Shown piece after piece: positions 1,577 to 11,325 of a stretch of 11,325 nucleotides of DNA. The stretch is from assembly GCA_001820675.1 (NCBI GenBank), contig MHQO01000010.1, positions 1-11,325 of the forward strand, given 5' to 3'. Source of the DNA: Candidatus Sungbacteria bacterium RIFCSPLOWO2_01_FULL_47_10. GTDB taxonomy: Bacteria > Patescibacteriota > Minisyncoccia > Sungbacterales > GWA2-42-14. Under the pieces are notes generated by a model that was not told the DNA's origin, did no database searches, and saw only the letters and a list, made by a program, of their open reading frames with translations. The position numbers and the translations under genes were made by a program. Numbering within the stretch: the stretch's first letter is position 1; every line of letters starts with the position of its first letter.

Positions 1577-2728
1577 CTATCGAATCAGCGCAAGAGAGCT
1601 ATTCGAATACCGGTCGTCTCCCGTTACTTCCTTTATGACTTCGATAAACGGAGGGATTTCAAGTCGGTCGTTTTCGTCGGTAAGCTCAACCTCAAGCCGC
1701 ACGATCGGCCGTGAAGGATTAAAGGAAATTCCGTCTTCGCAAAGGGCGGCGATCATGCGAGAGTATGTCGGTTCACAAAAGACATCCGCCTCGAAATACT
1801 GGTTCGACCAGGCAAAACAATGCCGTATTTTCCGGATGATATCACGGGAGTGATCCCGTTCGCCCGCCATATACCCAGAATATTCTTCGGGTGTGATATT
1901 CCGTTCAACTTCATACATGGTGCCAGCTTTTATCTTTTTTTTCTTTGTTTCGGTGAATGTGTAATGGCCGTTTTGACTCCGCCTTCGCATGCGCCGCCTG
2001 AATTCATCGACCGGCTTAAGGTAGGTTTGTTCGATTTCAACGACATTCGAGAAAACGGGCAGATGAGAAAACTCCGGAAGGTAGATAATGAAACTCCGCT
2101 CAATTTCCATTGGCGCGGGAATCCCCAACACGCGGCAAACGCTCACAAGGAGCCGCTGCATTTTGCCTTCAAAATCGGTGCTGTTGTCGATGGCTCGGAG
2201 GTGCGGGCACCCAACCCACGCCTCAAGAGTTCTCGTATCAAGAGTAATTGCTTCTTCCGGAGATTCTTTTCTCTCGGTATTGTTCGCCGTGGTGTAAAAT
2301 TCGGCGGCACCAATCGCCGCAGTTACCAGGTGGATCACCGACACATACGGAGCGTCACGCAGCATAACTTCGTTCAGCCCCATTTTTTTTAAAAGCGTGG
2401 CAAAATCGTCGGGCGCCATATATGCCTTTCCGTCCATGAGGCCGCGGTCGCATAATAAAACTTTTTTCGGATTCTTATGCCGGCCCAACATGTTCCGATA
2501 AAGTTCCTCATGCGCGATCTGGAGACGTAGAATATATTCCTGGAATTCCATGGAAGGAATTCCGTCTTCGCCGATTTTTACCCCGCTTGAAAAAAGTTGT
2601 GTTGCCGCTTCTGGAACGGTCAGGGCGCTGAAGCCGTAGTCGCATAACTTTTCTGGGATTCGCGCCATTGCAGTCGATTTCCCGCTGCATGGCCCGCCGG
2701 TTATAACAATCGCGGGAATATCCCTCAT
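1577..2728 (-). CDS. P-loop NTPase with C-terminal CYTH-like domain (TTD14/NadR-type AAA protein)
   Basis: 383 residues from ATG 2728, led by GGAGAGG just before the start. The N-terminal half is a P-loop NTPase: Walker A 'GGPCSGKST' (11-19) and a Walker B-like 'VLLCDRG' (90-96, D94). This layout matches the AAA domain shared by NadR kinases and eukaryotic TTD14 (TRPL translocation defect 14). The C-terminal part (about 226-370) reads as a CYTH/triphosphate tunnel domain: 'EIEQTYL' (231-237) in place of ExExK, an arginine-rich strand (244-250), 'KIR' (300-302), 'FEAD' (312-315) and 'LEVEL' (345-349). The tunnel lysine of ExExK is a threonine here (T235), so triphosphatase activity is doubtful; nucleotide or phosphorylated-ligand binding is more plausible. 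It is a cytosolic protein with no signal peptide. The natural substrate is unknown, although Drosophila TTD14 is reported to bind GTP and phosphoinositide. It ends in its own terminator after a mini-ORF. Confidence 0.82.
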   Translation of the reverse strand: MRDIPAIVITGGPCSGKSTAMARIPEKLCDYGFSALTVPEAATQLFSSGVKIGEDGIPSMEFQEYILRLQIAHEELYRNMLGRHKNPKKVLLCDRGLMDGKAYMAPDDFATLLKKMGLNEVMLRDAPYVSVIHLVTAAIGAAEFYTTANNTERKESPEEAITLDTRTLEAWVGCPHLRAIDNSTDFEGKMQRLLVSVCRVLGIPAPMEIERSFIIYLPEFSHLPVFSNVVEIEQTYLKPVDEFRRRMRRRSQNGHYTFTETKKKKIKAGTMYEVERNITPEEYSGYMAGERDHSRDIIRKIRHCFAWSNQYFEADVFCEPTYSRMIAALCEDGISFNPSRPIVRLEVELTDENDRLEIPPFIEVIKEVTGDDRYSNSSLALIR

Positions 2729-3380: not shown

Positions 3381-5048
3381 TCAGAAGAATTTTTTGAGAA
3401 AGAGAAAGCCGACAGCGGATGCGGCTCCGATAAACAGGCTTGCGGTCAAAAATATATATGAAGAAAATCCTCCAAACGAGATGCCGGCAGTTTGTTCGTC
3501 CGGCAAAACAGCGGACTCGCCCGTCTCAAGCGGAGAAACGTCATTATCCGTCCCGAATGGCGGCGGATTGATTCCGCTTTCGATATTATTCGCGCCGCCG
3601 CTTTCGTCCTTGTTTTCTTCAAGCGATGCGGCCTCACCCGATCCCGTCTTTTTGTCCGATGCGTCTTTTGTCGCAGCGCTCATTTTTTCAGTCAAACCGT
3701 TCGCGCCAACATTGTTCCCTTCCGTCTCGGTTATTTCGTATTCGGAAACAGCAACCGGATTTACGGCTCCGGGGGATGGTGATGACGTTTTTATAAAACC
3801 ACTGTCTTTGCCACGGATAAAACTCTCACCCGAAGAAAGAACTCCGGTAAATTTTGCGGTATCGACGGTTTTTCCGTTTGACGTTAATAACGATATAAAC
3901 CCGCCGAGCCCCGAGATCCCCGTTGTCGAATTCGGGAATACCCGAACGGTTTTTCCGTCAAGAAATGTATCCTTCGGCATCAAAAAAACTGCTCCGCTTG
4001 CTTCATCTTTTACTATAAGCCGCCCGATATCCGTTCTCTTGGCGTTCGCGTTGAATAGTTCTATAAATCCATCGGGGCCGGTTTTAACTTCGCTTATCGC
4101 AATCTGCGGCAGGAGAACTTCTATCGTCAAATAATCTCCGTGTGATTCTTCGCCAACATTCGCATTCAAGCTCACGATATAAACGCCGGGATAAGAATAT
4201 GTGTGAGTCGTCGCTTTCAGGCGCGCAATCGAGCCGTCGCCGAAATTCCAGAGATACTGCGCATTTGTGACAGGATCTCCCGACACACCGGTTGTCCTTC
4301 CCACAAAATCCGTTTCCTGGCCCGATAATACGGTTTTGTCCTCTCCCGCATACACGGTAAATGTTTCTTTCAGCGCCGGAGTTGTCGGCTGTGATGAAAC
4401 AACGTTTTCTGCCGATGAACCCAACCCCGATTCCTCTTCTGTTGGTTGTGAAGGGCCGCCGGAAGCGGCACCGTAGGCGCTATTTTCCGATTTCGGCGTT
4501 CCGTTTATGGGGGTGCCGTTCGCGTCTTTCCCGTTTCGGGTATTTCCGTCGTTCGATGCCCAGTTTGATGAAAGGGACCCATCCGCCAACGGATCGATTC
4601 GTTCCATGGAAAAATAATCTGGACCGATGGAGCCGGCTGGCCAGCCGCCCGCGAATGAAATAGTGTCAACAACGGATCCCCCGGAATCAATCAACTCGAG
4701 GTCTTCGCCGGAATTCGATATACTGCCATATTGTCCAAATGATCCATAAAAATCCGCGGCAACATCGGAAATATCCGAATCCGATGTACGTTCAATCAGA
4801 TAAAAACCGGAGCCCGAGATCGTTCCGGAAAGATTTATGGTCGGTCTGCCGTCCGACAGAGCCCGAATAATCCATCCGTCCAATGAAATTGCCTGACCGC
4901 CATTGTTTCTCAATTCAATCCATTCGTCGGTATCGTCTGCGGCAGTTCCGCTCCATCCGACTTCGTTGATGACAACACTGCCCGCGCGAACAAAAAACGG
5001 GGCTGAGAAAATGCAGAACAATGCGATTATTTTTTTCATCATACTCAT
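3381..5048 (-). CDS. Membrane-anchored surface protein: lamin-tail, PKD, lamin-tail domains
   Basis: The frame extends to a TTG at 5057, but ATG 5048 (MSMMKKIIALF) is preferred; ATGs at 5042 and 5039 are also possible and none has a clear Shine-Dalgarno. Numbering from 5057: signal peptide about 6-25 ('IIALFCIFSAPFFVRA'); first lamin-tail domain about 27-195 ('VINEVGWSG', 'DEWIELRN', 'GFYLIERT'); PKD domain about 233-315 ('LWNFGDGS', 'HTYSYPGVYIVSL'); second, shorter lamin-tail domain about 318-430 ('IAISEVKTGPDGFIELFN'); a long acidic, low-complexity stalk (430-530); one transmembrane helix (533-555) and the tail KKFF. The protein is therefore exported and held by its C-terminal helix, with beta-sandwich domains outside. 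These domains are common in secreted proteins; roles in adhesion or surface display are inferred. It has no catalytic motif. The first lamin-tail domain resembles the one in the giant protein at 6381-10322 (shared 'INE', 'DEWIEL', 'FLIERT' type motifs). Confidence 0.85.
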   Translation of the reverse strand: MSMMKKIIALFCIFSAPFFVRAGSVVINEVGWSGTAADDTDEWIELRNNGGQAISLDGWIIRALSDGRPTINLSGTISGSGFYLIERTSDSDISDVAADFYGSFGQYGSISNSGEDLELIDSGGSVVDTISFAGGWPAGSIGPDYFSMERIDPLADGSLSSNWASNDGNTRNGKDANGTPINGTPKSENSAYGAASGGPSQPTEEESGLGSSAENVVSSQPTTPALKETFTVYAGEDKTVLSGQETDFVGRTTGVSGDPVTNAQYLWNFGDGSIARLKATTHTYSYPGVYIVSLNANVGEESHGDYLTIEVLLPQIAISEVKTGPDGFIELFNANAKRTDIGRLIVKDEASGAVFLMPKDTFLDGKTVRVFPNSTTGISGLGGFISLLTSNGKTVDTAKFTGVLSSGESFIRGKDSGFIKTSSPSPGAVNPVAVSEYEITETEGNNVGANGLTEKMSAATKDASDKKTGSGEAASLEENKDESGGANNIESGINPPPFGTDNDVSPLETGESAVLPDEQTAGISFGGFSSYIFLTASLFIGAASAVGFLFLKKFF

Positions 5049-5096
5049 TGGTTGCAAATTTTTTCTAAATCGTCAATGACGGCGCGCTTTGGTATT

Positions 5097-5294: not shown

Positions 5295-6272
5295 ATGAAA
5301 AATGTTCTTCTTGTTCTTGGACTTGTTGTGGTCATTGTGGCGCTCATTCTCGCATTGGGTCCATCCCGCCAGGAATCGGTCAGGGTTGAAACATCCCCGC
5401 CCGCTCCCGAGCCTGCTCCCGAGCCAAGTCCGTCTCCTCTTCCGCCGCCGCAGCCGACCGAAGGCAGGGTTGTTTTTGCGGTAACCGATGCCGCGGCAGG
5501 ACTTGAAAATATCGACGGTATTATCGTCACGACCAAAGAAGTTCGGGTTCAGAGTGCGGCCAAAGGATGGGTTACGGTTTCGGAAGAAACAAAATCGTTC
5601 GACCTTCTCAAACTCAAGGAATCGGGATCGTTCGCGCTTCTTACGGAGGCAAATCTCGAAGCCGGAGAATACAATCAGGTGCGCCTTTCGGTTTCAAAAG
5701 TGGAAGTGATTGAAAAAAGTAGCGGAAAAATTTCTCTCGCAAAACTTCCTTCCGGAGACCTGAAACTTGTCGGAAAACTCGTGGTTGAAGCGGGCAACGA
5801 ATCGTCCGTCGTTCTCGATTTTCTTGCCGATAAGTCGCTTCATACAACGGGGCAGGGGTCGTATATTTTCGCGCCGGTTATCACACTTGAGACAAAAAGC
5901 AATGCGGAAATTTCAATCGGCGGAGGGCTCGTGAATATCGGCGGCGGAAAAACGGATACAAACATAACGATCGGCATGAATGAATCCGGCGAAGTCGGAA
6001 TAAACGTCGCAATCGATGCGGGAGCAAACCTTGAAATCGTCGGGGACGCGATACGCGTCATGGCAAAAGGCGAAAGTGAAGCGGCGGTTTCCATTACGGC
6101 AAAGGGCGCGATTGACGCGGCGGTCGGCGGGGAATACCTCGACAGCGCCATTTCCGTAAAAATGATCACGCGCGAAGGAAAGAAAACGTGGCTTGTTACG
6201 GGACTGAAGGGACTTGAAATTACGAATATCTATGTGGATGCTTCAACGGGCGTTGTCGTGCGTGTTGAATAA
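5295..6272 (+). CDS. Membrane-anchored DUF4382 protein with C-terminal PepSY-like domain
   Basis: 325 residues from ATG 5295. Residues 4-21 are an uncleaved-looking N-terminal transmembrane helix, followed by a Pro/Glu/Ser-rich spacer (35-54). Residues about 57-199 match the DUF4382 pattern: 'GRVVFAVTDAAAG', 'IIVTTKEVRV', 'WVTVSEE', 'FDLLKL', 'LEAGEYNQVRL', 'LKLVGKLVVEAG', 'VVLDFLADKSLH', 'YIFAPVI'. Glycine-rich strands (205-255) lead to about 263-325, where 'AKGAIDAAVGGEYLDSAI' then 'GKKTWLVTGLKG' then 'IYVDASTGVVVRVE' has the order and ending of a PepSY domain. The protein should face outwards, held by its N-terminus. DUF4382 has no settled function; PepSY domains often inhibit or escort secreted peptidases, so an envelope role is plausible. 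It is the only plus-strand gene and is divergent from the lamin-tail gene; it ends at a shared bidirectional terminator. Confidence 0.87.
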   Translation: MKNVLLVLGLVVVIVALILALGPSRQESVRVETSPPAPEPAPEPSPSPLPPPQPTEGRVVFAVTDAAAGLENIDGIIVTTKEVRVQSAAKGWVTVSEETKSFDLLKLKESGSFALLTEANLEAGEYNQVRLSVSKVEVIEKSSGKISLAKLPSGDLKLVGKLVVEAGNESSVVLDFLADKSLHTTGQGSYIFAPVITLETKSNAEISIGGGLVNIGGGKTDTNITIGMNESGEVGINVAIDAGANLEIVGDAIRVMAKGESEAAVSITAKGAIDAAVGGEYLDSAISVKMITREGKKTWLVTGLKGLEITNIYVDASTGVVVRVE

Positions 6273-6345: not shown

Positions 6346-6382
6346 AAAAACGGGCGATGGATACGCATCTGCCCGTTTTTTT
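6346..6382. terminator. Bidirectional intrinsic terminator between convergent genes
   Basis: AAAAACGGGC (6346-6355) pairs perfectly with GCCCGTTTTT (6371-6380), with an inner GATG/CATC helix and one bulged T. Plus-strand transcripts meet T at 6376-6382, minus-strand transcripts T at 6350-6346. The minus gene's stop TAA (6383-6381) overlaps the plus-strand T run, so the convergent genes share it with almost no spare sequence. Confidence 0.88.
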
Positions 6383-9300
6383 ATGGAAACAGATCCGGCG
6401 GCTCCGTTTTCACCGCATTCGAATCATCAATATCTACGCCATTATTTATGATATGCGACGAACTGCCAACGGTTATCCCAACCGCATTATTTCGAAATAC
6501 CGCATTTTCAAGAGTCGACGTCGCATTGTCGGATACAATCAGCGCATACCCTGAGTTGTTCCGAAAAAGCGTATCGTAAACAGTGCTCGAAGAATTCTTA
6601 AACCAAACGCCTCTGAAACTGTTGTTCTCAATAATCGAATGCGCGAGCGATACGGATGACGCTTCCGCCATGAGTCCCGCACCCATACGAATCTGCGTTC
6701 GACCGCCCCCGTACCGGATTATTGCGCCGTTGAGGATTGATTCGCGCCCCGGTCCGGAATATATCGAGATTCCCGACCAGGTGCCCGCTGATGCCTGAGA
6801 GGTTGTCGCGTTATTATTCGTGTCTCCCCCATATTCGTCGTCGGCAAACGCGGTAAAAACAACAGGTTCTTCTTCTGTCCCCTCCGTCACAAGAGAACCG
6901 TATACGCACATGTCTCCGTGGTCCGGAAACTTAATCACAACGCCTTTTTCAATTGTGAGTTTTGCGTTTATATTATAGCACGCATAATCTCCAACGATAT
7001 ACGTCAAGTCCTTCGGCAGAAACGTGTCATCTTCAAGATGCCCGATGAGTTCTATGCCGTGTTTTCCCGGGCTTTCAGGCGAAATACTGTTTCCCTCAAA
7101 AAAGGGAACGGAATTCGTGATGCGGATCGCATAATTATTTTCAATGAATCTGTTGCGACTGATTTCTCCTCCGCGAAAATTCGAGCCGGCTATGCCGCCT
7201 CCGTTTTTAATAAATTCGTTATCAATAACCCGTGCCGCCCCGCCTCCGCCGACAAACGCTTCACGCGCATTCAGCCGAAACATGTTGCCGCTCACGGTTG
7301 ACGCGCAACCCAAACATCCGATTCCGAATAATTGCGAGTGTTCGATTATTGAGTCGCTCACCGAAACATTCACGCCTTCCAGCACAATCATTGCTTGTCT
7401 TTCGATTGAAAAATTATTGATATGTCTGCCGCCATACCGGATAATCGCTCCGACAATTCGGGATTCCGGCTCCGAAGCATCAAAAAATATATTTTTCCAC
7501 GAACCCGGGTAGGGGCAGGCCGCGGTTGAGGAGGCGTCGTCCGGACTGCATATGCCGTCCTTATTCGTATCTCCCCCGAACTCGTCGTCGCGGATGCTTG
7601 TGATGACAACCGGGTCCTCTTTTGTTCCAAGAATTTTTAAGGCGCCATGAACGGTGATTTTTGGGTCATATGTTGATGCGATTTTGACGACCACTCCCGG
7701 CTCAATCGTAAGCGATGCTCCGTAATCAATCATCAGCCCATCGCGGAGGATAACATACGGAGAATTCTCTTTTGTCAGGGTTTTGTCGGAGCGAAGCCAA
7801 TAATGGCCGTATACGACGGGAAGGGTCGCGCTGTTCCTTTCTTTTGGCGTGCCGAAGATTTCCTCTCCATCGGCATTTGCATACGGACGGGCAATTTCTT
7901 CTTCGTAATATGTTCCCCACCCCGCTTCCGCACCCCCCACATCGGCATTGACGCGCTCCATGGTGCTCCGCGCGGCCTTATTGCCAGCGCACCAGCGGGT
8001 ATTTTCGCGCCAATTTGGGGGACAGTCCAGGGTTTGATCGATTATTGTCGAACCCCTGGCAAGTTTTATAACCATGCCGGAATCATGAAGGCCGGTACCG
8101 AAAGAGGTTACAATATCCGCGGAAATATCCGGCAACGTATCGTCATTGGTGCGTTCAATAAGAAAATATCCTTTCGGCTGAATTGCGCCCGAAAGAGGGA
8201 TAATTTTTTTTGGCTCGGCGCTCATCGGACTTGCAAGATTTGCGGTATCCTGCAGGCCGTATAACTCCAACTGCCAGCCGGAGAGGTTTATCGGATGTAT
8301 CACGCGGCTTTTAAGTTCAATCCATTCATCTTTGCTTGTCGTTGCCGACCCCCCCGTTCCCATCCATGCGATTTCGTTTATGATCACGGGCAGGAGATTG
8401 ACTTCCGCCGATTGCGAAACTTCCGCAGATTCGTTGCCCGCGCCGTCTTTTGCCCGTGCGCGAAATTCATACAGCATGTCGGATGATGCGCGATATACCA
8501 AAGACCGTGCCCTGGTGGTTGTCGCGGTGGAGCTTGCGGAGGCAGAATCATCTTCACCCATTCCGGCATCAATGATTTTCGGATTCTCAAAATCTTCACA
8601 GGGCGCCCATGGAACAGAGACGCTTTGCCGAGATAAGCACGCGAGAGAATATGATGCGGCGTCATCCGCCGATGAATCAAGCGCTATCGTAAGCGTCGTC
8701 GTGCCGATCGCGCATGCCTCCTCCGAGAAACCGTCGGAACACTCAAGAATAGTTAAAGAAACATCCGGCGGCGTTTCATCCGGAGTTGAAGTCGGACTTC
8801 CTTCGTCGAGAAGTCCGACTTCGGTAGTTTCCTCCCCCTCAAGAGAGGGAGGAGAGGAGGGGGTATCACTGGTCTCGCCATCAGAAGCAGAAACAGCCGC
8901 TCCCCCTCCGCCTCCGCCGACAAAAGCGCCAAGATACCACGGCGGAGAATCAATATCATCCGATTGTTCGGCCGCTGTTTCGTTATCCGGTGTCGAGGTT
9001 GCCTCCTGGAGTTCTGCCTTTGGAGAGGGTGGCGTTACGGATGCCGTGTTACCCGGCATTAAATTATACAAGGATTCTTGTGCTTCTGGTTTTTCGGCAT
9101 CAGCAGGAACCGAAGAAGGAACTGTGGCGGAGCTGTCCGGCGCTGATTCGACTACGGCGTTGGACGGCGGCGCAGTTTCCTGAACTTTCTGAATCGCGCC
9201 GCTGACTCCTGCCGTATACGCGTAAGGGCCAACAGTATTCGAAGAAAATACGCTTGTTGACCAATCCCACGCTTTCTGCCACCAGGAGCGGTTTTTAAGC

Positions 9301-10322
9301 CACAAAGTTCGCGTTTGCTTTTCTTTTTCAACCTCATCGAAGAAAAGCTTGATTAGGCCCGCGCCGTTTTTTATAGCTTCTTTTGAGAGAAGGGCCCAGT
9401 AGTCTGCAGTGATCAAATTATCTGCGTCCTCAATTGTAGTTACCTTTTCTATTCCTCCCAAACGCCTGATTCCGAGCTGAATTAACTTGTATTTAATTCC
9501 ATCAAGTTCTGCGTACCCAAATTGATGGAAAAGTCCATCACTTAACTTTTGTAATACTGTAATTGAATATGTTGGTCTTGTGTAATCAAATATTGTATCT
9601 TTACTAAAAAAATTATTATTTGAATAATTCGCCGTCACATTGAAATAATCATTCAAAGACGAGGCAATGCGGGGCTTGTTTGATTCACTCTTCATTCCCT
9701 CAAGCATATTTGTATTATTCACGCCAAATTGAGCGGTCCACGATTCATACGGGCTTTCGTCAAGCAGGGCGGAATGGCTCAAAATGTTCGGGTGGGGGTC
9801 GTTTCTGGTGTGATCCGGAACCGTGGCATCCTCAAGCAAGTGCAGGATGTGGCCGAGCGACTCAAGCCCCCGCTCCTCGTCAATCCATGCGTAGTCATAA
9901 ATCGCGCGCTCCCACGAATAATCGGACGGGGATGAAAACAGAGAAAATATGGAGCCATACGTCGTATCCCGAAACGCGCCGTCTTCTTCGGCTTGCGCCA
10001 ATGTATCCTGCGACCAGTCCTTTGACGATTCCCACGTTTTGCCCAATATCGTAAGCCCGCGATCGTGCACAGGATCAAAGAAATGCCTAAGCCATCGCGT
10101 CTCCTCGTCTTCGTCAATCGAGCCCTTCATCAAAAGGCCGATTTCATGAGCGTCAAGGAATCTTTCTGGATGATGATAATTGAAAAAGCGCGCGATCTCT
10201 TTTGTGAGTGCGGGGTGCGTTGTTGTGTCGCTGTATCCGAAAACAAAAAGAGGGATACTCAAAAAAAGAATCCCCCCTCCTAAGAATTCGTAAAGAAGTT
10301 TTATAGTTCTAAAATTTTCCAT
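6381..10322 (-). CDS. Giant secreted protein: Zn phospholipase C/P1 nuclease-like domain, lamin-tail domain, beta-helix
   Basis: 1313 residues from ATG 10322; the next methionine is residue 65, so this start is secure. Hydrophobic signal 13-29. Residues about 31-345 resemble zinc-dependent phospholipase C/S1-P1 nuclease: H36, D70 or D72, H80 in 'LRHFFDP' (compare 'SHFYDP' of Bacillus cereus PLC), then H161-x3-D165-x5-H171 in 'HLLEDATVPDH', the exact spacing of that enzyme's H118/D122/H128; 'PYESW' (191-195) may supply the last glutamate. Residues 380-515 are a Pro/Ser/Glu linker with six glycines (469-474). An Ig/FN3-like segment (518-643) and a lamin-tail domain (about 645-830, 'VIINEIAWMG', 'DEWIEL', 'YFLIERT') follow. 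Residues 838-1300 form a right-handed beta-helix with two long repeats and a Ca-loop-like 'DTNKDG' (918-923). There is no C-terminal anchor, so it is probably released or held non-covalently. Substrate (phospholipid or nucleic acid) cannot be told. Its start overlaps the upstream gene by 22 bases. Confidence 0.85.
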   Translation of the reverse strand: MENFRTIKLLYEFLGGGILFLSIPLFVFGYSDTTTHPALTKEIARFFNYHHPERFLDAHEIGLLMKGSIDEDEETRWLRHFFDPVHDRGLTILGKTWESSKDWSQDTLAQAEEDGAFRDTTYGSIFSLFSSPSDYSWERAIYDYAWIDEERGLESLGHILHLLEDATVPDHTRNDPHPNILSHSALLDESPYESWTAQFGVNNTNMLEGMKSESNKPRIASSLNDYFNVTANYSNNNFFSKDTIFDYTRPTYSITVLQKLSDGLFHQFGYAELDGIKYKLIQLGIRRLGGIEKVTTIEDADNLITADYWALLSKEAIKNGAGLIKLFFDEVEKEKQTRTLWLKNRSWWQKAWDWSTSVFSSNTVGPYAYTAGVSGAIQKVQETAPPSNAVVESAPDSSATVPSSVPADAEKPEAQESLYNLMPGNTASVTPPSPKAELQEATSTPDNETAAEQSDDIDSPPWYLGAFVGGGGGGAAVSASDGETSDTPSSPPSLEGEETTEVGLLDEGSPTSTPDETPPDVSLTILECSDGFSEEACAIGTTTLTIALDSSADDAASYSLACLSRQSVSVPWAPCEDFENPKIIDAGMGEDDSASASSTATTTRARSLVYRASSDMLYEFRARAKDGAGNESAEVSQSAEVNLLPVIINEIAWMGTGGSATTSKDEWIELKSRVIHPINLSGWQLELYGLQDTANLASPMSAEPKKIIPLSGAIQPKGYFLIERTNDDTLPDISADIVTSFGTGLHDSGMVIKLARGSTIIDQTLDCPPNWRENTRWCAGNKAARSTMERVNADVGGAEAGWGTYYEEEIARPYANADGEEIFGTPKERNSATLPVVYGHYWLRSDKTLTKENSPYVILRDGLMIDYGASLTIEPGVVVKIASTYDPKITVHGALKILGTKEDPVVITSIRDDEFGGDTNKDGICSPDDASSTAACPYPGSWKNIFFDASEPESRIVGAIIRYGGRHINNFSIERQAMIVLEGVNVSVSDSIIEHSQLFGIGCLGCASTVSGNMFRLNAREAFVGGGGAARVIDNEFIKNGGGIAGSNFRGGEISRNRFIENNYAIRITNSVPFFEGNSISPESPGKHGIELIGHLEDDTFLPKDLTYIVGDYACYNINAKLTIEKGVVIKFPDHGDMCVYGSLVTEGTEEEPVVFTAFADDEYGGDTNNNATTSQASAGTWSGISIYSGPGRESILNGAIIRYGGGRTQIRMGAGLMAEASSVSLAHSIIENNSFRGVWFKNSSSTVYDTLFRNNSGYALIVSDNATSTLENAVFRNNAVGITVGSSSHIINNGVDIDDSNAVKTEPPDLFP
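6705..6959 (-). repeat. Beta-helix repeat module 2 (protein residues 1122-1206)
   Basis: Begins 'LTIEKGVVIKF', continues 'YGSLVTEGTEEEPVVFTAFA', 'DDEYGGDTN', 'GTWSGISIY' and ends 'NGAIIRYGG', matching module 1 in order. The loop after GGDTN is shorter than in module 1 and its acidic positions are partly asparagine (D1167, N1169, N1171), so any calcium binding is probably lost. A run of beta-helix coils ('SIIENNSFRGV') follows it as in module 1. Confidence 0.75.
7428..7712 (-). repeat. Beta-helix repeat module 1 (protein residues 871-965)
   Basis: Begins 'LTIEPGVVVKI', then 'HGALKILGTKEDPVVITSI', 'DDEFGGDTNKDG', a loop with C925 and C936, 'GSWKNIFFD' and 'VGAIIRYGG'. The same series recurs at 6705-6959, an internal duplication of about 250 residues counting the helical coils after each module. 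Confidence 0.75.
8788..8822. repeat. Inverted pair of palindromic 13-mers inside the linker of the giant gene
   Basis: GAAGTCGGACTTC (8788-8800) and GAAGTCCGACTTC (8810-8822) are exact reverse complements separated by nine bases, and each is itself a palindrome around its central base. It encodes about residues 501-512 of the low-complexity linker. The perfect 13-base stem in coding DNA looks like a small repeat element tolerated in a linker rather than ordinary coding sequence. Confidence 0.7.
8831..8852. repeat. C-rich/G-rich inverted repeat next to the palindromic pair
   Basis: CCTCCC (8831-8836) and GGGAGG (8847-8852) are complementary, with a partly pairing interior, and a purine-only run continues to about 8863. 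It lies nine bases from the palindromic pair in the same linker and may belong to the same inserted element. Confidence 0.5.
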
Positions 10323-10768
10323 TTTCCATTTAAACCACGGATCATGACTAATTGAACTTCAACTATATTGTTCTCATCTGCAATTGTAAAAAAAACCCGA
10401 TCTCCATTGTTTTTTGTCAATTTAAGTGTGTGTGCATCCACGATTGCATTTTTTAGCCCGTTGCTGTCTCGCAATTCTGCTAAGTAACCATGTATCTCCT
10501 CCTGCTTATCCAGTACAAAATACTTCGATGCCAATTCAACATCTCCTTTTTCAAGGGCCGAGATGAATAATTCGAGCGTTTCTTCCGGAGTCTCGCCCCC
10601 ATACGTATCCTCCATATACTGGCGCGTGAGGGACTCCACTTCTTGTTCTGCCTGATATTCGGGAGAATTATAATACCCGTAATACCCAATGCCGAAAAAA
10701 ACAGCCGCGCCAACGCCGATAAGGAGAAGTGCTTGTAAAAAGTATTTAAAAATGCGTTTTTTATTCAT
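10301..10768 (-). CDS. Membrane-anchored NTF2-like (DUF4878-type) small protein
   Basis: 155 residues from ATG 10768 (MNKKRIFKYF). A transmembrane helix covers about 9-32, then a charged coil, then a soluble domain (about 58-155). 'TPEETLELFISALEKGDVELASKYF' spans a helix, a GD turn and a helix, split here as 'TPEETLELFI' (60-69), 'SALEKGD' (70-76) and 'VELASKYF' (77-84). This opening is typical of NTF2-like extracytoplasmic domains such as DUF4878. The end, 'VMIRGLNGKWKILEL', is the usual final strand of that fold ('...G.WKI'). No catalytic residues stand out; ligand or partner binding at the outer membrane face is inferred. Its last 22 bases overlap the start of the 1313-residue gene (stop TAA 10303-10301, next ATG 10322), so the two are probably one operon with coupled translation. 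No clear Shine-Dalgarno is seen before ATG 10768. A terminator lies only 28 bases upstream. Confidence 0.77.
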   Translation of the reverse strand: MNKKRIFKYFLQALLLIGVGAAVFFGIGYYGYYNSPEYQAEQEVESLTRQYMEDTYGGETPEETLELFISALEKGDVELASKYFVLDKQEEIHGYLAELRDSNGLKNAIVDAHTLKLTKNNGDRVFFTIADENNIVEVQLVMIRGLNGKWKILEL

Positions 10769-10898: not shown

Positions 10899-11325
10899 TT
10901 AGGACGACTGCAAAATTTTGTTTATCTTCGCGCGGCTTGAAGGCCCGACAAATCCGGTTCCTCCCGAAAGTCCTGCCGGTTTCAATACGTCGTCGGCATA
11001 TTTTTCCTGAAAACGGACGACGGCCTGTTTCGTAAGATCCCCAAAATAACCGGTGATAAGCCCTTGGGGGTAGACACCTTCTTTTACCAAAAGCTCCTGC
11101 AGTGCTTTTACGTCATCGCCGCCATCTCCCACGGTCAAATTCCTTAAAATTTCTTTTTTTGTTTCCTGCCCGGGCGGCAATGCGGCGCCGGAAAGAAGGT
11201 CATTCACTTTCTTAAGAGTTGATTTGCCGACATATCCCGACCCCTGCGACAATCCGACCGATGTAAGAATTTCATCGGCATATTTTTCCTGAAAACGGAC
11301 GACGGCCTGTTTCGTAAGATCCCCA
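10899..11325 (-). CDS. Tandem peptidoglycan-binding-domain protein (C-terminal part, runs off right edge)
   Basis: The frame is open from the right edge to TAA 10901-10899, giving 141 visible residues; a TTG at 11252 is internal, not the start, because homology continues upstream of it. The last domain reads 'LTVGDGGDDVKALQELLVKEG', shown here as 'LTVGDGGDDVKALQ' and 'ELLVKEG', then 'GYFGDLTKQAVVRFQEKY', the pattern of PG_binding_1 domains that bind peptidoglycan. The visible upstream piece repeats 'GDLTKQAVVRFQEKYADE' and is followed, like the last copy, by 'VG...GSGYVGKSTLKKVNDLL' against 'GTGFVGPSSRAKINKIL'. The repeat period is 94 residues. No catalytic domain is visible; one could lie beyond the edge. 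It is followed by a strong terminator. The likely location is the cell wall or envelope, with export inferred from function. Confidence 0.85.
   Translation of the reverse strand, partial: GDLTKQAVVRFQEKYADEILTSVGLSQGSGYVGKSTLKKVNDLLSGAALPPGQETKKEILRNLTVGDGGDDVKALQELLVKEGVYPQGLITGYFGDLTKQAVVRFQEKYADDVLKPAGLSGGTGFVGPSSRAKINKILQSS
10993..11043 (-). repeat. 51-base direct repeat, copy 1
   Basis: Identical base for base to 11275-11325, offset 282 bases (94 codons), encoding 'GDLTKQAVVRFQEKYAD' in both domains. Flanking parts of the two domains differ clearly, so identity here points to recent exchange between the domains. Confidence 0.9.
11275..11325 (-). repeat. 51-base direct repeat, copy 2 (cut by the edge)
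   Basis: Second copy of the repeat at 10993-11043. The match reaches the last base of the window, so the true repeat may be longer. Confidence 0.9.

Follow-up and report, generated by a model that had tools for sequence, protein, structure and literature searches.

The window analysed here is an 11,325-nucleotide stretch of DNA, positions 1 to 11,325 of contig MHQO01000010.1 in assembly GCA_001820675.1 of Candidatus Sungbacteria bacterium RIFCSPLOWO2_01_FULL_47_10 (Patescibacteriota), and the subject of this study is a pair of overlapping genes on its reverse strand, to which all coordinates of the pair refer. The upstream gene (10301..10768) encodes a protein of 155 amino acids, termed the partner, in which an N-terminal hydrophobic, putatively transmembrane stretch is followed by an NTF2-like domain with weak similarity to DUF4878. 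The downstream gene (6381..10322) is an open reading frame (ORF) with an ATG start that encodes a giant, apparently secreted protein of 1313 amino acids. The two genes overlap by 22 bp (10301..10322), and the start codon of the giant gene (ATG) spans two adjacent codons, for Lys and Trp, close to the end of the partner. Taken as a whole, the pair is probably best explained as a two-gene module consisting of a secreted multi-zinc hydrolase and a membrane partner. A first-pass annotation of the window had reported the giant ORF and ascribed it to the candidate phyla radiation (CPR); both statements hold, but the conserved partner gene upstream had been missed.

The giant protein begins with a predicted signal peptide (residues 1-29, ending in V27-F28-G29; 10236..10322), after which Tyr30 (10233..10235) is the predicted mature N-terminus. 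Residues 30-350 (9273..10235) form a domain with the fold of the phospholipase C (PLC)/P1 nuclease superfamily. This is followed by a linker rich in Pro, Ser, Thr and Ala together with an unassigned stretch (residues 351-645; 8388..9272), a lamin tail domain (LTD; residues 646-754; 8061..8387) and a beta-helix region (residues ∼850-1313, Pfam core 968-1094; 6384..7775). In the Pfam scan of the full protein, Beta_helix (PF13229) was found above its cut-off with an E value of 3.8e-14, and the LTD (PF00932) with an E value of 1.9e-6 at 28.6 bits, below the cut-off of 34.3. These matches bear out the earlier proposal of a fusion to LTD and beta-helix modules. However, of the 'about 900 residues of adhesive-type modules' described there, only the LTD and the beta-helix are recognizable, while residues ∼351-645 are mostly linker with no Pfam match.

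The predicted model of residues 30-350 (m1edc4d4fb312) has a predicted local distance difference test (pLDDT) value of 93.7 and a predicted template modelling (pTM) score of 0.93. Foldseek and VIA searches with this model found the PLC/P1 nuclease fold among both PLCs and S1/P1 nucleases, the match to PLC being clearly stronger (20.0 versus 14.6). In addition, profiles of the domain built from 32 (A1) and 77 (A2) family members reached Bacillus cereus PLC (1ah7) with E values of 1.2e-4 and 2.1e-4, respectively, so that model, structure searches and profiles all support the fold that had been proposed. Weak matches to the zinc-dependent PLC family PF00882 were obtained for 17 of the 32 and 57 of the 77 relatives. 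Every other Pfam family matched at most two of the 32 or two of the 77, with a best E value of 0.0034 (25 of 27 families listed for the 77 sequences), and thus no non-zinc fold emerged that would refute the assignment. Between them, the 32 members matched 12 families at E values of up to 10, and the S1/P1 nuclease family PF02265 was absent from these; in this range, most matches above about 0.1 are removed by the HMMER filters. No meaningful NCBIfam match was obtained for the 77 members, and no second PF00882 gene was found in the window's genome, which is 87% complete. A four-strand beta stretch (residues 254-296; 9435..9563) was assigned by DSSP on the model before the last long helix; to our knowledge, PLC lacks this stretch.

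The putative metal site was compared in two sets of sequences. A 38-sequence alignment contains the window protein and 37 relatives that were found by whole-domain similarity and not by motif; the first alignment was made without rows L061, L063 and L072. A 77-sequence set, with a mean column identity of 37%, contains the window protein and 76 of the best 80 relatives from a scan of named genomes (A2 omits rows L088, L089, L115 and L131), and 14 of the 37 recur there. Since the pattern [EQ]Dx[TSG]VP[DAE]HTR was used to retrieve 76 of these 77 sequences, residues Asp165, Val168, Pro169, His171, Thr172 and Arg173 are kept in this set by construction; His36, His80 and His161 lie outside the pattern. 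His36, Glu71, Asp72, Arg76, His80, His161, Asp165, Val168, Pro169, His171, Arg173, Asp175, His177 and Glu193 are kept in 38/38, and in the larger set the eight proposed ligands (His36, Asp72, His80, His161, Asp165, His171, His177 and Glu193) and Tyr30 are kept in 77/77. The spacing H161-x3-D165-x5-H171-x5-H177 is exact in every sequence of both sets.

The A1 profile aligns His161, Asp165 and His171 (9810..9842) and Glu193 of the SPYE motif (9744..9746) with His118, Asp122, His128 and Glu146 of B. cereus PLC, the PLC numbers being counted from the printed chain positions of the alignment. His80 (10083..10085) lies in RHFFDP, compared with SHFYDP around PLC His69, with which the A2 profile aligns it in a brief segment scoring 1.7 bits, which taken alone lacks significance. 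The H-x3-D-x5-H core and the histidine of the HFYDP motif of PC-PLC are accordingly present in all 38 sequences. The counterpart of His36 (10215..10217) is presumably PLC His14, with PLC His14, P1 His6 and the N-terminal spacings of the PLC and P1 enzymes as background. From its order in the sequence, Asp72 (10107..10109), adjacent to Glu71, is the probable counterpart of PLC Asp55. His177 (9792..9794), six residues after His171, aligns with PLC Asn134 and is a candidate substitute for the missing PLC ligand His142. In B. cereus PLC, Zn1 is bound by Asp122, His69, Asp55 and His118, Zn2 by His142, Glu146 and His128, and Zn3 by Trp1 and Asp122, as described in PMC10420013. The first-pass annotation had named His36, His80, His161, Asp165 and His171 as ligands in the order of PLC. 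These residues are where it placed them, and the profile alignments support the order; the set was incomplete, since the equally invariant Asp72 (with Glu71), His177 and Glu193 had been omitted.

The window's domain alone has no Pfam match, and a single-sequence search of the PDB gave nothing significant (best E value 1.5), as would be expected if the His/Asp pattern had arisen by chance in a domain of another fold and built no metal site. However, this explanation is scarcely credible: all eight proposed ligands, including the five named earlier with their exact H161-x3-D165-x5-H171 spacing, are kept in 38/38 relatives that were not chosen by motif, and the profile and fold matches contradict it. 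The domain is very probably a metal-dependent hydrolase of the PLC/P1 nuclease superfamily.

The mature N-terminus bears directly on how the enzyme would be activated. Signal peptidase I cuts behind a small residue (Ala, Gly or Ser). Such a residue precedes position 30 in 77/77 sequences of the larger set (Ala 59, Gly 16 and Ser 2) and in 37/38 of the smaller (Ala 29, Gly 4 and Ser 4, with Phe in the remaining one), which supports the secretion signal proposed earlier and points to cleavage just before residue 30. Residue 30 is Tyr in all 77 sequences, and Tyr (36) or Phe (2) among the 38, and it takes the place of PLC Trp1 in the alignments. In all 26 PLC and S1/P1 rows of the structural alignment, the aligned part of the model begins with its residue 1 (Tyr30), and the chain ranges of these rows start at 1, 21, 26 or 27; residue 21 of S1 nuclease is described as the mature N-terminal Trp, the main chain of which binds zinc (PMC5201275). 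Because all 26 rows start at Tyr30 and S1 residue 21 is this Trp, Tyr30 occupies the position of the N-terminal Trp ligand. No propeptide would thus separate the site from the predicted cleavage point, and the enzyme would consequently be active on leaving the membrane.

The modules behind the zinc-type domain were counted with Pfam in 65 proteins, namely the window protein and 64 complete ORFs of at least 700 amino acids (three of 67 fell under 700 and were excluded); for helix-hairpin-helix proteins, which were not located by regular expressions, only the Pfam counts were used. An LTD was found at an E value of 0.001 in 59/65 proteins (29/33 and 30/32). A search starting from the window's own LTD placed it after the zinc-type domain in 61/67 complete ORFs, often in two or three copies. 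Some family proteins contain further modules with PKD, Ig-like, fn3, beta-propeller or cupredoxin matches. A beta-helix was found in 14/65 proteins and is thus rejected as the general core of the system; it is not a defining part. In three proteins (L124, L145 and L069) a staphylococcal nuclease (SNase) domain lies between the zinc-type domain and the LTD, and no SNase motif beyond these three was found in a motif scan of the main ORFs of 120 loci (106 distinct).

These SNase fusions, together with the company that LTDs are described as keeping with nucleases (PMC8289736; PMC6085458), favour a nucleic acid substrate, which has an appreciable but lesser probability. The giant protein would then be a secreted S1/P1-type nuclease that degrades extracellular nucleic acid for nucleotide uptake, with the LTD helping to hold nucleic acid or the cell surface; this is a tenable reading, although one that we hold to be less probable. 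It is opposed by the sequence profiles, which match PLC and PF00882 rather than nucleases, by the clearly stronger structural match to PLC, and by the last ligand, which is Glu as in PLC and not Asp, as we take it to be in P1. Furthermore, the second His-x3-Asp metal motif of the S1/P1 nucleases is lacking, there being no His at position -4 from Glu193. A phospholipid substrate is favoured by both sequence and fold similarity, and we give it an even chance.

The family was followed through three samples. With the first 413 residues as the query, matches were found in 49 of 142 related genomes, including the window's own, and the enzyme-domain profile A2 found it in 50 of the 142 (about a third); 47 of these matches are strong (E value of 3.8e-37 or better) and three (G026, G073 and G115) comprise the core motif only. 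Of 379 genomes in a broader sampling of the phylum, 11 matched, eight strongly (the window's own included) and three in the core only. A scan of named genomes gave 226 pattern matches and 217 confirmed relatives, of which the best 80 were kept. The labels of these best 80 of 217 are candidate groups that we take to be Patescibacteria, or 'bacterium', except for L083, a contig of a metagenome-assembled genome labelled Legionellaceae that carries the pair with the same 22-bp overlap; our guess is that it is probably a mis-binned Patescibacteria contig. One genome carries two copies of the enzyme gene (L063 and L066; G044:C3 and C10), one of which is interrupted by stops. A viral, phage or plasmid origin was rejected: a single-protein scan of viral contigs gave nine pattern matches and no confirmed relative, and none occurred in phages or plasmids.

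The partner gene accompanies the enzyme gene in nearly all of these loci. In 78 of the 80 named-genome loci, the gene immediately upstream on the same strand is a partner homologue, and in the other two (L121 and L088) the ORF starts at the very edge of the contig. The genes overlap by exactly 22 bp in 46/78 loci and are within 30 bp of each other in 69/78, with starts called mechanically. Among the 47 strong relatives, the partner is adjacent in 44, as read from the tables of the two profiles. In two of the remaining three (G130 and G034) an upstream ORF with the same end motif was recognized by eye, whereas the partner profile (A3) does not find the one in G130 even at an E value of 1 and finds that in G034 only at 0.39, and the third (G119) is cut at the contig end. 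All eight strong matches in the wider sample have the partner upstream (G332 with an E value of 1.3e-3 only; G294 about 0.6 kb away), and none of the six core-only matches (G026, G073, G115, G440, G176 and G158) has an upstream partner. In L160 (G062:C12), the partner is followed by three other ORFs and then, near the contig end, by a short hit on the beginning of the enzyme gene.

A hydrophobic N-terminal stretch was found in 77/79 partners, a pattern search found no lipobox in the 79, and weak DUF4878 similarity occurs in 50/79 at E values of up to 1. The model of the partner is confident and NTF2-like. For the window and 75 loci, distances between partners correlate with the corresponding distances of the enzyme domains (r = 0.70), a correlation that shared descent alone could also give. 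The partner rather probably acts directly on the enzyme, and an inhibitor role is proposed on account of its NTF2-like fold, its predicted place in the membrane, the gene pairing and the absence of a propeptide in the enzyme. It may instead be a membrane anchor, foldase or secretion helper of the giant protein, a possibility of somewhat lower probability: the pairing holds whatever the C-terminal modules, and the outer domain of the partner is strongly conserved (GG-TPEET and a final WK), but nothing found separates a helper from an inhibitor.

Several observations weigh against a PLC-like hydrolase with a dedicated partner. The Foldseek scores are modest (best E value 8.8e-4, TM score ∼0.44 on the query). 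The window's zinc-type domain alone has no PF00882 match even at E values of up to 10, the window protein does not reach the Pfam gathering score of this family, and PF00882 appears at an E value of 0.001 in only 1/33 and 2/32 family proteins scanned at full length. The position of the N-terminal Trp of PC-PLC is occupied by Tyr or Phe, one sequence (L060) has Phe before Tyr30, outside the cleavage rule, and the His four residues before the Glu, as in His142-x3-Glu146 of PLC, is absent in 77/77 and 38/38 sequences, the Glu itself being retained. The fold match of the partner is generic, and it is linked with the enzyme by gene order and co-occurrence. Among the 142 genomes, 45 have both profiles, five A2 only (three of them core-only) and five A3 only. 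Partner-like genes also exist unlinked (in G025, G029, G054, G099, G136 and G139 among others), so that strict exclusivity of the partner is not upheld. Four loci with such unlinked genes were inspected (L153, L154, L155 and L157), three of which lie near a cysteine-desulfurase-like gene (names by eye); they suggest a paralogue with another role. Canonical membership of PC-PLC or P1 nuclease is rejected, since the N-terminal Trp, the H-x3-E and second His-x3-Asp motifs, a PF00882 match of the window protein and a PF02265 match among the 32 members are all wanting. The PLC-like identity proposed earlier therefore stands for the fold and ligand order, but not as that of a canonical member.

Other genes near the pair were also noted. 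The window contains a second lamin-tail protein (3381..5057, reverse strand) with two LTD stretches, a PKD domain and a C-terminal hydrophobic tail; homologues of it lie downstream of the giant gene, directly in L073 and at ∼2.5 kb in L074. A convergent DUF4382 protein with a hydrophobic N-terminus is encoded at 5295..6272 (forward strand), and a 383-residue protein with a P-loop-like start (GGPCSGKST) and only a weak adenylate-kinase-type match at 1577..2728 (reverse strand). A family that includes L128:5459-6229, which we take to resemble small REP-type transposases, occurs near the pair in 21/80 loci, most often two genes upstream. Upstream of the pair, a gene cut by the end of the window (10899..11324, reverse strand) encodes peptidoglycan-binding-like repeats, with related proteins in 18/80 loci, and members of a large surface-protein-like family are encoded close to the pair in 24 loci.

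The presence of such peptidoglycan-binding or surface-protein-like genes in some loci would fit a third substrate class, in which fold and metal are kept and another phosphodiester of the cell's own envelope is cleaved, such as teichoic acid, a lipid-linked sugar or a cyclic nucleotide. The family-wide changes of the site (residue 30, loss of His142, His177, and Glu71, Arg76 and Arg173 invariant in 38/38) and the presence in about a third of the related genomes point the same way; the ligand set, however, is close to that of PLC, and we consider this reading improbable.

Homology, predicted fold, conservation and gene pairing are computational results; for zinc, the number of metals, activity, substrate and the topology and role of the partner, we infer the following for the two-gene module. 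The first gene would give a small protein with one N-terminal helix in the membrane and an NTF2-like domain outside, and the second, starting within the first, a giant protein secreted by the Sec pathway. Signal peptidase would cut just before Tyr30, and the new N-terminus, with His36, Asp72, His80, His161, Asp165, His171, His177 and Glu193, would build a multi-zinc site of the PLC/P1 nuclease type. This site would hydrolyze the phosphodiester of a phospholipid (somewhat favoured) or of nucleic acid, and the LTD and the variable modules towards the C-terminus would tether the enzyme to a surface. The partner would bind the enzyme at the membrane as an inhibitor for self-protection or as a folding helper. 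The most specific version, a hitherto undescribed and strictly paired Patescibacteria system in which an LTD-tethered, Tyr-capped multi-zinc phospholipase (or nuclease) and an NTF2-fold membrane guardian are used on the membranes or nucleic acids of neighbours or hosts, is speculative and rather unlikely; its strict pairing would follow from the enzyme becoming active at signal-peptide cleavage. The hydrolase may serve feeding on host lipids or nucleotides, as the first-pass annotation had suggested.

Compared with bacterial zinc-dependent PLC (PF00882; B. cereus PC-PLC 1ah7 and Listeria PLC 8cqm), the predicted mature N-terminus is Tyr/Phe instead of Trp, His142 is missing and His177 stands in another place, an extra beta stretch is present, there is no room for a propeptide, and the domain is fused to an LTD and other modules and paired with an NTF2-like partner gene. 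The S1/P1 nucleases (5fba, 1ak0 and SmNuc1 8qjn) show no sequence-level match to the domain and differ in the H-x3-D motif, which is absent here, and in the last ligand, presumably Asp there and Glu here. The Het-C domain (Tox-HET-C), a predicted relative of PLC and S1-P1 nuclease, is by its description in PMC3482391 a divergent member of the same superfamily with comparable His and acidic residues; it occurs in toxin systems, whereas the present domain stands at the N-terminus and has a partner. ExeM of Shewanella is likewise described as a secreted phosphodiesterase with an LTD (PMC6085458), but its catalytic domains belong to different types (EEP and a YcgR-like region). Immunity proteins with an NTF2 fold have been described (PMC3482391), and the partner resembles Imm-NTF2 in its fold and in being encoded beside a secreted hydrolase-type protein, as judged here from gene order and fold; unlike Imm-NTF2, it is predicted to be membrane-anchored and lies upstream. 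In Roizmanbacteria, a protein with a lamin tail domain is described next to a CRISPR locus, without a PLC (PMC6509639). No description of the giant protein, a PLC-LTD fusion in Patescibacteria or the partner was found in titles and abstract openings of the open-licence literature. Because of this, and because the window's domain has no Pfam match and the family no meaningful NCBIfam match, we judge the superfamily to be known and the family, distinguished by the Tyr/Phe cap, the displaced histidine, the fusion to an LTD and the paired partner gene, to be a new form of it.

In our judgement, although no search aimed at this change alone was made, replacement of Trp by Tyr or Phe as metal ligand at the N-terminus would add a new variant to a well studied zinc site. 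It is an open question how the ultra-small Patescibacteria acquire lipids and nucleotides, which they are believed not to synthesize themselves. A secreted hydrolase-like protein with an invariant proposed site and a paired partner, present in 50 of 142 related genomes, is a concrete candidate, and one open to expression and assay without cultivation of the organism.
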